Source: Microbacterium murale (GTDB taxonomy: Bacteria > Actinomycetota > Actinomycetes > Actinomycetales > Microbacteriaceae). Taken from it: a stretch of 64,000 nt of DNA. The position numbers and the translations under genes were made by a program. Under the pieces are notes generated by a model. The model had not been told where the DNA came from and made no database searches. It saw only the letters and a program-made list of their open reading frames with translations. Of the stretch, positions 45,013 through 48,747 are shown piece after piece; positions within the stretch are counted from its first letter, which is position 1, and each line of letters begins with the position of its first letter. The stretch covers positions 186,001 through 250,000 of the forward strand of contig NZ_BMCM01000002.1 in the NCBI RefSeq assembly GCF_014635185.1, given 5' to 3'.

Positions 45013-45027
45013 TAGCATCAGGCTGTG
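45013..45027 (+). promoter_or_regulatory. Leaderless promoter, CPBP protease gene
   Basis: TAGCAT at 45013-45018, CAGGCT, GTG at 45025. Confidence 0.6.
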
Positions 45028-45789
45028 CACTCCTCCGATCCCACCGCCGCACCCTCGCGTGCACGAATCTGGTGGGAGATCGCCATCGTCCTGGCGCTCG
45101 GGCTCGGCGAATCGGCCGTGTACTCGATCGTGCAGCTCGCCTACCGGCTGACCGATTCGACGCCGCTCGCCGATCAGACCACCGCACTCAATCCCTCGCG
45201 CAGCGATCGCGAGATCTTCGATCTCATCTACCAGGTGCTCGGGGTGGCCTTCTCGATCGTGCCGGTGCTGCTGGTCTGCTTCCTGCTGTGGCAGGCCTCG
45301 CGCCCGCACCTCGGCAGGCTCGGGCTGGACGGAACCCGTGTCGGCCGCGACATCGGCCGCGGCATCCTGCTCGTTCTGGCCATCGGCATCCCCGGTATCG
45401 CGCTCTACGTCGGCGGGCGGATGCTTGGGCTCTTCGTCGCCGTGAACGCGGGCAGTCTCGACAACTACTGGTGGACGGTACCCGTCCTGCTCCTCTCCGC
45501 CGCCCGCGCGGCGCTCATGGAGGAGTTCGTGGTGCTCGGCTACCTGTTCACCAGGCTCAAGCAGCTCGGCTGGGGCATCTGGCCGATCATCATCGCCACT
45601 TCCGTGCTGCGCGCGAGCTATCACCTGTACCAGGGTCCGGGCGCATTCATCGGCAATCTCGCGATGGGGTTGCTGTTCGGATGGCTCTTCGCCCGCACCG
45701 GCCGCTTGATGCCGTTCCTGGTGGCGCATTTCCTCATCGACGCCGTCGCGTTCGTCGGCTACCCCCTGGTTGCTCCCTTCCTTCCGTAG
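45025..45789 (+). CDS. CPBP-family intramembrane metalloprotease
   Basis: 254 residues with about seven membrane helices. The active-site glutamates are Glu166-Glu167 (MEEFVVLGYLFTRL); His200 and His235/Asp239 (HFLID) complete the expected metal site. The usual arginine of EExxxR is replaced by leucine in this subgroup. Possible roles are prenyl-protein or bacteriocin-related proteolysis; substrate unknown. GTG start follows TAGCAT by six bases. A palindromic repeat begins 11 bases after the stop. Confidence 0.87.
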   Translation: MHSSDPTAAPSRARIWWEIAIVLALGLGESAVYSIVQLAYRLTDSTPLADQTTALNPSRSDREIFDLIYQVLGVAFSIVPVLLVCFLLWQASRPHLGRLGLDGTRVGRDIGRGILLVLAIGIPGIALYVGGRMLGLFVAVNAGSLDNYWWTVPVLLLSAARAALMEEFVVLGYLFTRLKQLGWGIWPIIIATSVLRASYHLYQGPGAFIGNLAMGLLFGWLFARTGRLMPFLVAHFLIDAVAFVGYPLVAPFLP

Positions 45790-45799
45790 CTCCGCCGTC

Positions 45800-45872
45800 C
45801 CTCGAATCAACAACACCACGCCGAGACGTACGCAGTTCGCCGCGCATTCGGCGTGGTGTTGTTGATTCGAGG
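45800..45872. repeat. Palindromic element with conserved loop, copy A
   Basis: A perfect 25-bp inverted repeat: arm 45800-45824 pairs with arm 45848-45872, around a 23-base loop. The core arm sequence is GGCGTGGTGTTGTTGATTCG. The loop, read here as GACGTACGCAGTTCGCCGCG, matches the loop of copy B in the opposite orientation, so the two copies share a whole element and not only a stem. Confidence 0.9.
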
Positions 45873-45965
45873 AGCTGCAACTGTGCGTCCGCCACTTGTC
45901 CTGCACATTGCCGATGAAGCGGGAAGCCTGTGGAGCACGACCATGGATGTCGATCGTGGATCACC

Positions 45966-46913
45966 ATGGGCCGTATGCGGATCCTGCCGAGCCCCCTGCC
46001 ACTGATCCTCTCCCGTGACGAGAGCGCCGGCCACACCGACCGCCGCTGGCGCAGCGGAACTCTGAACAGGCTGTTCCGTGGTGTCTACGTCGAGACCAGC
46101 ACGTGGAATCCGCTCCCACCATGGCAGAAGTACCTCGTCCGCATCCACGGTGCCCTCGCGGCCGAGCCAAACCGTGTGCTCTTCGGCGAATCTGCCGCGG
46201 CGGCGGTCGGGGTGCTCATCCCCCATGCCGTTCGCCCCGTCCACATCCTCAGCCCGGGTGCTTCCTCGCGCGAGTACCGCGGGATTCGCAGTCATGTCTC
46301 GGTCGATGCGCGCGAGATCGTCGTCGTCGACGGCGTCCGATTGACCGCTTCGGCACACACCGCCGTCGATATTGCACGTTCGCGTCCACCTGCGGAGGCG
46401 CTCGCATACGCCGACGCGTTACTCCGCATCGACCCGGATGCGACGAGAGAGCAGTTCGTCGCGTTGAACCAGGCCCTGGTCTCCGGACGTGGGCGGCGAC
46501 AGGCACGATGGGCGCTGAATCGAGCGACCGGCCTACCGGAGAGTCCACTTGAGTCTGCGAGTGTCGCAGTGATCGAGTGGCTCGGATATGCATCACCCAC
46601 GCTGCAGCATCCGTTCTTCATCGAGGGCAGGACGTACAAGTCCGATTTCTTCTGGGAACACGAACGCGTCGTCGGCGAAGCCGATGGCAATGGGAAGTAC
46701 TCGACGGAGACGGGCAATCCGACCGAGGCGATCATCGGCGAGAAGCGGCGGGAGAACCTGCTCCGCCGCCACACGTCAGGCATGGCGCGGTGGGGATGGG
46801 AAGACGTGGCTGAAATCGAGCCGCTCGACGTGGCCCTCCGCGCGACAGGCTTGCGCCCGATACGCGCACGCGACACGATGAACCTCGCCACGATGCGACC
46901 GTTCGGGCGTTAG
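45966..46913 (+). CDS. AbiEi-like/DUF559 two-domain protein
   Basis: 315 residues. The N-terminal part (about 1-60: LSRDESAGHTDRRWRSGTLN, then RLFRGVYV) resembles the AbiEi winged-helix domain of type IV toxin-antitoxin antitoxins. The C-terminal part (about 190-285) resembles DUF559/Vsr-like PD-(D/E)XK nucleases, with Glu195, Asp227, Glu238 and Lys244 (KSDFFW, VVGEADGNGKY) in plausible catalytic positions. No partner toxin lies beside it. Two inverted copies of one palindromic element flank it. The start may be 45966 or 45975; neither has a clear ribosome binding site. Confidence 0.7.
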   Translation: MGRMRILPSPLPLILSRDESAGHTDRRWRSGTLNRLFRGVYVETSTWNPLPPWQKYLVRIHGALAAEPNRVLFGESAAAAVGVLIPHAVRPVHILSPGASSREYRGIRSHVSVDAREIVVVDGVRLTASAHTAVDIARSRPPAEALAYADALLRIDPDATREQFVALNQALVSGRGRRQARWALNRATGLPESPLESASVAVIEWLGYASPTLQHPFFIEGRTYKSDFFWEHERVVGEADGNGKYSTETGNPTEAIIGEKRRENLLRRHTSGMARWGWEDVAEIEPLDVALRATGLRPIRARDTMNLATMRPFGR

Positions 46914-46932
46914 CCGCGCCAGTCCGCTCCAA

Positions 46933-46999
46933 CGAATCGACAACACCACGCCCAACGTGCGGCGAACCGCGTACGTCTCGGCGTGGTGTTGTCGATTCG
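46933..46999. repeat. Palindromic element with conserved loop, copy B
   Basis: A perfect 20-bp inverted repeat: arm 46933-46952 with arm 46980-46999, 27-base loop. Arms match copy A at all but one position (GTCGATTCG in place of GTTGATTCG). The loop reversed is GACGTACGCGGTTCGCCGCA, nearly identical to the loop of copy A, so this copy is inverted relative to A. It ends five bases before the dppDF stop. Confidence 0.9.
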
Positions 47000-47004
47000 A
47001 CGAG

Positions 47005-48743
<1,739 letters not shown>

Positions 48744-48747
<4 letters not shown>

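Follow-up and report, generated by a model that had tools for sequence, protein, structure and literature searches.

Are the two hairpins that stand around a single gene in Microbacterium murale ordinary terminators, or do they belong with that gene to one dispersed element? The window, meaning the whole 64,000-nt stretch of DNA that was analyzed (G000:C2:186001-250000, G000 being the M. murale genome), contained two 73-bp hairpins that were inverted copies of each other, with 91% identity across 68 nt.

Geometry of the two hairpins

The first-pass annotation had described two palindromic elements with perfect stems of 25 and 20 bp and near-identical arms, and both were confirmed. The arms of the left element (45800-45824 and 45848-45872) were separated by 23 nt, and those of the right element (46933-46952 and 46980-46999) by 27 nt. 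RNA folding gave z values of about -11.0 (left) and -7.8 (right), and none of 200 shuffles equaled them on either strand. The elements and their motif copies were as follows.

45800..45872, plus strand: left hairpin element, 10 bases past the stop of the CAAX-protease gene (25-bp arms, fold and model match)
45803..45808, plus strand: outer motif copy of the 5' arm, CGAATC (sequence reading)
45822..45827, plus strand: inner motif copy of the 5' arm, CGAGAC, 19 bp past the outer copy
45845..45850, minus strand: inner motif copy of the 3' arm, degenerate, CGAATG on the minus strand (sequence reading)
45864..45869, minus strand: outer motif copy of the 3' arm, CGAATC on the minus strand (sequence reading)
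46930..47002, minus strand: right hairpin element, reversed, with the 3' end of the ABC-transporter gene 2 bases away (arms, fold and model match)

The loop was reversed in the second copy, as had been noted. Its description as conserved held in part: it was close between the framing pair, whereas the other ten copies in the genome kept its length and only some of its sequence. No T-run was found beside either stem when both strands were inspected.

The framed gene and its predicted product

A single ORF of about 315 aa was found between the hairpins, in agreement with the annotation. The gene, the predicted parts of its product and its neighbors were placed as follows.

45025..45789, plus strand: left neighbor, CAAX prenyl endopeptidase-like (PF02517, E 2.9e-18), outside the unit
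45966..46913, plus strand: putative nuclease gene, with alternative starts GTG 45930 and ATG 45975 and the stop at 46911-46913
45993..46529, plus strand: AbiEi-antitoxin-like part, model residues 9-187 (residue 1 is base 45969)
46536..46859, plus strand: Vsr/EDxHD homing-endonuclease-like nuclease domain, model residues 190-297
46644..46697, plus strand: D226 ... E237-x-D239-G-x-x-K243, invariant in the 48-sequence alignment
47005..48747, minus strand: right neighbor, oligo/dipeptide-type ABC transporter ATPase (PF00005, PF08352), outside the unit

In the structure model (mean pLDDT 94), the N-terminal part resembled the AbiEi antitoxin, and it was followed by a nuclease domain that resembled Vsr and homing endonucleases. 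The AbiEi-like N-terminus, proposed earlier from the sequence, was weak by Pfam (E 0.094, below the cut-off) and clearer by PADLOC (E 4e-6) and by fold. The C-terminus had been called DUF559/Vsr-like. The Vsr half of this label stood, as the predicted structure matched the Vsr-like catalytic fold; on the other hand, Pfam DUF559 gave no match for the window protein. The E-x-D-G-x-x-K motif is one that we take to resemble DUF559.

Foldseek alone gave a best hit of 1.6e-3, to Rv2827c, and nothing at E 0.001. A sequence search of solved structures found none at E 1, a search of NCBIfam with the protein found none, and PF01797 matched neither the window protein nor the other 47 aligned members.

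The D, E and K residues were invariant in 48 aligned sequences, comprising the window protein and 47 of 80 homologue loci. D226, E237, D239 and K243 are, judging from this alignment, probably the active site, and the product is probably a DNA-cutting protein. The NG86 dN/dS was 0.13-0.21 among three orthologues, calculated on stop-to-stop frames that overran the likely starts and with saturated dS. By such sequence comparison the protein is under constraint.

A defence role had also been suggested, and nothing beyond the AbiEi label was found in its favor. Phage cargo was rejected, with no match in a phage collection at E 1e-5. Plasmid cargo was rejected as well, with 4 matches among 72,556 'plasmid' records, each large and typed as non-mobilizable.

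Dispersed copies in the M. murale genome

A DNA search of the genome gave 11 matches, and further copies came from reading stem words in the fetched loci. The 12 copies were aligned and built into a covariance model, which gave 24 matches, or 12 places read on both strands, in the 3.9-Mb genome; their scores follow by construction, as the model came from the same copies. These were the framing pair and 10 solo hairpins. The model searches scored 129 or 150 candidates per genome, and the copy numbers are therefore lower bounds.

All 12 copies shared one geometry, with 17 nt between the stems and a stem-word offset of 31. Over the 12 sequences 86.3% of the cells paired, and 8 pairs had changed on both sides; of 500 shuffles, 0 and 10 reached these two values, respectively. 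No conserved GT(A/G)G head was seen in the 12 copies with their flanks.

The outer arms read CGAATC in both framing copies and in none of the ten solo copies, of which eight had CGAGAC in the outer 3' arm. The framing pair therefore seems to have changed together.

The same genome held a second homologue (L335, G000:C1:37469-38386), flanked on both sides by GTGAGACACC-type compound hairpins, and a third at G000:C3:439422.

Matched hairpin pairs around the nuclease gene family

Of 38 genomes, 25 contained homologues, that of M. murale among them, and 80 named loci, the best 80 of 111, were fetched. The locus counts are not independent, as the set takes in near relatives (three of them M. oleivorans) and genomes that also belonged to the 38.

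At a distance of up to 400 bp, hairpins with a palindrome score of at least 16 stood to the left in 58 of 74 loci and to the right in 54 of 77, and 40 of 71 loci had one on each side. By the same criterion, the gene match contained none in its first 400 bp (0/80), and 2 of 296 distant windows had one. The density was 1.81 hairpins per kb in the gene flanks versus 0.063 per kb outside.

Matched pairs, defined by a similarity score of at least 26 and a distance of 600-1700 bp, framed the nuclease gene in 38 of the 80 loci, and no such pair stood around anything else in 525 kb of surrounding sequence. The other 42 loci had no matched pair under these criteria; some of these had flanks truncated at contig ends and were counted as misses. 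The hairpins are a dispersed and sequence-specific family, linked across species to the nuclease genes, and this supported the earlier view of a REP-like element that is more than a terminator.

In the 46 loci with a score of at least 14 on both sides, the similarity of a left hairpin to its own right partner had a median of 42.5, versus 10 for the partners of other loci. The own partner ranked first in 29 of these loci and lay at or above the 95th percentile of the cross pairs in 37. The hairpins of one locus match each other and differ from those of other loci. The orientation of the pair was variable, the inverted alignment being better in 25 of the 46 and the direct one in 18.

Hairpin similarity also rose with protein identity, with a Spearman coefficient of 0.337 that none of 999 permutations reached. 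Different units of one genome kept different hairpins: G214 carried one GAGAAACC-type and one CGAGACTCCAAC-type unit.

In G213 a homologue (L341, G213:C28:66923-67842) was matched as two pieces, with GAGAAACC-type hairpins on each side. Six further loci (L126, L133, L135, L165, L170 and L175) had CAAX-like gene ends on the left, read by eye, and a glycine dehydrogenase gene to the right, identified by Pfam GDC-P in L126 and by eye in the other five. The hairpins of these six differed by species and were alike within each locus.

Seven loci came from other families of the order. At a score of at least 16, hairpins were on both sides in L098, L105 and L106, on one side in L109 and L110, and on neither in L103 and L108. 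A Tsukamurella gene annotated as DUF559 (L349) was bounded on either end by a hairpin (1773-1836 and 2724-2787) whose outer stem was perfect over 20 bp, and this hairpin occurred at 18 places, both strands counted, in 7 Tsukamurella records. A Collinsella homologue lay amid hairpin arrays, with 11 places in its record. The hairpin pair was absent at the homologues L101, L103 and L108 and at Tsukamurella L348 and L350. In the Collinsella locus L351 (1457-1762 and 2872-2993), four hairpins stood in a row upstream and more downstream.

A word repeated at 19 bp

The same hexamer occurred twice per arm exactly 19 bp apart in 85 of 216 arms, where shuffled arms gave an expectation of 1.2. There were no hexamer repeats at 18, 20 or 21 bp. 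Lesser excesses were seen at 16 bp (11 versus 1.1 expected) and 8 bp (9 versus 2.7 expected). As the two arms of one element are not independent, the 19-bp repeat was also counted per element (60 of 108) and per locus (46 of 70); any other spacing occurred in at most 7 loci. In the left element of the window, the step from CGAATC (45803) to CGAGAC (45822) was 19 bp too.

The word itself varied by lineage (CGAGACT, CGAGAAT, CGACAAT, CATAAAC, CGAGAAA and CGAACCC). A four-site fit was obtained for 58 elements in 42 loci, with a span of 65, 67 or 69 bp in 35 of the 58; the fit was forced and includes false ones, such as a G-run (L129).

These results bore on the reading of the hairpins as bidirectional intrinsic terminators or insulators that were spread by recombination, with the nuclease gene incidental. 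The hairpins are strong and copies lie near gene ends, with convergent genes at 13 of 35 and 14 of 40 sites by crude gene calls, which also put 6 of the 35 and 5 of the 40 inside an ORF and are not trusted there. On the other hand, no T-run follows either window stem, the geometry and the 19-bp spacing are fixed, matched pairs were restricted to the nuclease gene family in the loci examined, and such hairpins were rare in the distant windows. We consider this reading very unlikely, and an ordinary terminator as the main reading was rejected on the matched-pair framing and the missing T-run. The first-pass annotation had named copies at many convergent gene ends, variable loops and no link to the gene family as marks of an ordinary terminator. 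Copies were indeed at gene ends and the loop sequences varied, but the link to the nuclease gene family was strong.

Copy number in relatives

In the close relative G197, the only two places found flanked the orthologous gene, at the site that corresponds to the one in the window. In G162 there were four, a pair framing the ortholog at the same site and two solo. G188 had 7 places and G093 had 2, and G111 and G114 had none at E 0.001, with 150 candidates scored in each genome.

A search with the M. azadirachtae hairpin (L120) yielded 58 matches, or at least 29 places, in its own genome and at least 29 places in the genome of L118; these are lower bounds, as 29 of 48 and 29 of 52 candidates were scored. 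The copies were 87-100% identical on the better strand. In each of the two genomes, two of the hairpin places framed the gene. The L120 search covered 31 genomes, of which 23 gave no match and 4 gave 1 to 5 matches; in three genomes the DNA search scored 29 candidates. In G243 a related hairpin of lower identity gave 51 matches, and the framed unit (L322) was of the CGAGAC type.

Microbacterium sp. 8M (G241, the genome of L186) gave 32 matches of an L120-like hairpin at lower identity, and its framed unit (L327) was of another type. In G188 and G241 no framed unit matching the dispersed hairpin type was seen, the framed units bearing other hairpins. Possible reasons are loss of the units or a protein that works with more than one type of hairpin.

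Empty sites and turnover

For six solo sites, the two flanks were joined and searched for in 12 relatives. Empty sites, about which the annotation had asked, did exist: three of the six had uninterrupted counterparts, and the other three gave one-sided matches. The empty counterpart of L060 in G111 and G197 had convergent stop codons that nearly touched, and that of L061 was found in G111, G181 and G197. The empty counterpart of L055 in G111 rested on a continuous match, with a poor site alignment. No target-site duplication was visible at the three sites, the empty sites coming from diverged species. Presence or absence at single sites could reflect loss instead of gain.

At the window site, the unit was present in 3 of the 30 loci examined (G000, G197 and G162). 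The CAAX-ABC gap was 611-686 bp, too short for the unit, in 19 of the 30; it was larger in 7, and 1 was unusable, with L231 omitted from the gap count as its right match was too weak. Translation of 13 CAAX-ABC gaps gave the unit in 2 and a small membrane gene in 11, with a Pfam bPH_6 match in the two tested. A bPH_6-type membrane gene was absent from 45789-47005 of the window (best match E 0.76).

In G188, a solo hairpin (L259, G188:C2:267156-267228) stood directly beside the 3' end of the CAAX gene, the position of the left hairpin of the window. The CAAX-ABC gap there was 659 bp, too short for the unit. This solo hairpin is possibly the state before insertion or after loss.

When 20 solo sites from M. 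azadirachtae were compared with 26 hairpin loci of the L118 genome, 12 had both flanks there, 2 had one and 6 had none. This suggested that turnover is slow.

Such stability would suit a domesticated host system, in which the protein binds scattered hairpins for a chromosomal job (repair, organization, transcript ends or defence), nothing is mobile, and pairing and covariation come from co-evolution of binder and site. The constraint on the protein and the AbiEi label from PADLOC are also in line with this. However, the copies found differed strongly in near relatives (12, 2 and 4 in G000, G197 and G162), the unit was at the window site in few of the loci, and the hairpins framed the nuclease gene itself far above anything else. 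We regard a host system as unlikely.

Comparison with known systems

To our knowledge, HUH transposases are the only dedicated enzymes known for REP-like repeats. A RAYT-like gene beside the hairpins had been raised as a possibility and was not borne out. The Y1 (RAYT) transposase family PF01797 was absent from all 12 hairpin-bearing genomes, while control genomes gave matches, and a RAYT-driven REP was rejected on this result.

The layout nevertheless resembled that of the REPtron (RAYT/TnpA-REP), in which a gene is framed by two palindromes and cognate repeats are dispersed and co-evolve with the protein. Repeat and protein are reported to co-evolve there, and repeat abundance to follow gene presence (PMC2817692; PMC8266576). 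The present protein differs in not being of the Y1/HUH type. The hairpin differs as well: it is about 67-73 bp long with words spaced by 19 bp, shows no GT(A/G)G head, and is not always in an inverted pair as it is in the window. In PMC2817692, RAYTs fitting its criteria were found only in gammaproteobacteria, whereas the present system is in Actinomycetota.

The Vsr-like catalytic fold is shared with I-Bth0305I, an EDxHD/Vsr-like homing endonuclease. That enzyme is described in PMC3943268 as dimerizing on a site of nearly 60 bp, which is close to the 67-bp hairpin. Homing endonucleases of this kind differ from the present system in its AbiEi-like N-terminal part, its free-standing gene and its many solo sites per genome.

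The AbiEi-like part has the antitoxin fold of the AbiE type IV toxin-antitoxin system, whose AbiEi binds inverted repeats at the abiE promoter (PMC3985639). In the present system, unlike in AbiE, a nuclease domain is in the same protein and the hairpins are dispersed. No adjacent AbiEii nucleotidyltransferase toxin was found in the window unit, its neighbors being the CAAX protease and the ABC ATPase.

The hairpins might by this analogy be autoregulatory operators, bound by the AbiEi-like part beside its own gene and kept alike by gene conversion. The AbiEi-like fold and the hairpin upstream of the gene would be expected then. The downstream copy, the distant solo copies and the nuclease domain are left unexplained by it, and we find operators quite unlikely to be the answer.

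Short dispersed palindromes together with a gene-bearing version also recall MITEs, from which the hairpins differ in the lack of a visible target-site duplication. CGTC-type REPs are described in PMC3733652 as lacking any association with transposase genes, so that REP families with no known enzyme had been recorded before. No description of AbiEi/DUF559/Vsr genes joined to palindromic repeats was found among the open PMC papers listed. The system was therefore rated as new in its parts and REPtron-like in its layout, which it shares with the REPtron while failing the defining enzyme test.

A proposed mechanism and its meaning

We think it fairly probable that the locus is a REPtron-like element of unrelated parts, in which a nuclease recognizes its cognate hairpins and spreads or maintains them. 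The unit would consist of one protein, with its AbiEi-like part and Vsr/EDxHD-type nuclease, and the cognate hairpin. The protein most likely recognizes a lineage-specific word of about 6-8 bp, which would often occur twice in an arm, 19 bp apart, and in the opposite orientation in the other arm. Reading of this word may fall to the AbiEi-like part, by analogy with AbiEi on inverted repeats.

We infer that the protein recognizes and cleaves the hairpin, nicking or cutting the DNA at the word. The copying route would then be cutting followed by host repair or replication, by which solo hairpins could spread into intergenic sites, largely gene ends. The same activity might keep the two framing hairpins alike.

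A broader proposal is put forward more tentatively, as a possibility: a second, independently evolved REP-like route in Actinomycetota. An AbiEi/Vsr-type nuclease would home on hairpins with up to four words at the 19-bp spacing, copy them into gene junctions genome-wide and change its word in step with them. Many distinct gene-hairpin pairs could thus coexist, even in one genome.

The layout was repeated in many related bacteria, each with its own gene and hairpin, which points to a little-noticed small repeat-spreading element. If this is true, an unrelated nuclease with the layout of a REPtron would be a convergent solution, and a group of hypothetical 'AbiEi/DUF559-like' proteins would gain a role. 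The dozens of natural protein-hairpin sets might also allow a DNA recognition code to be worked out.
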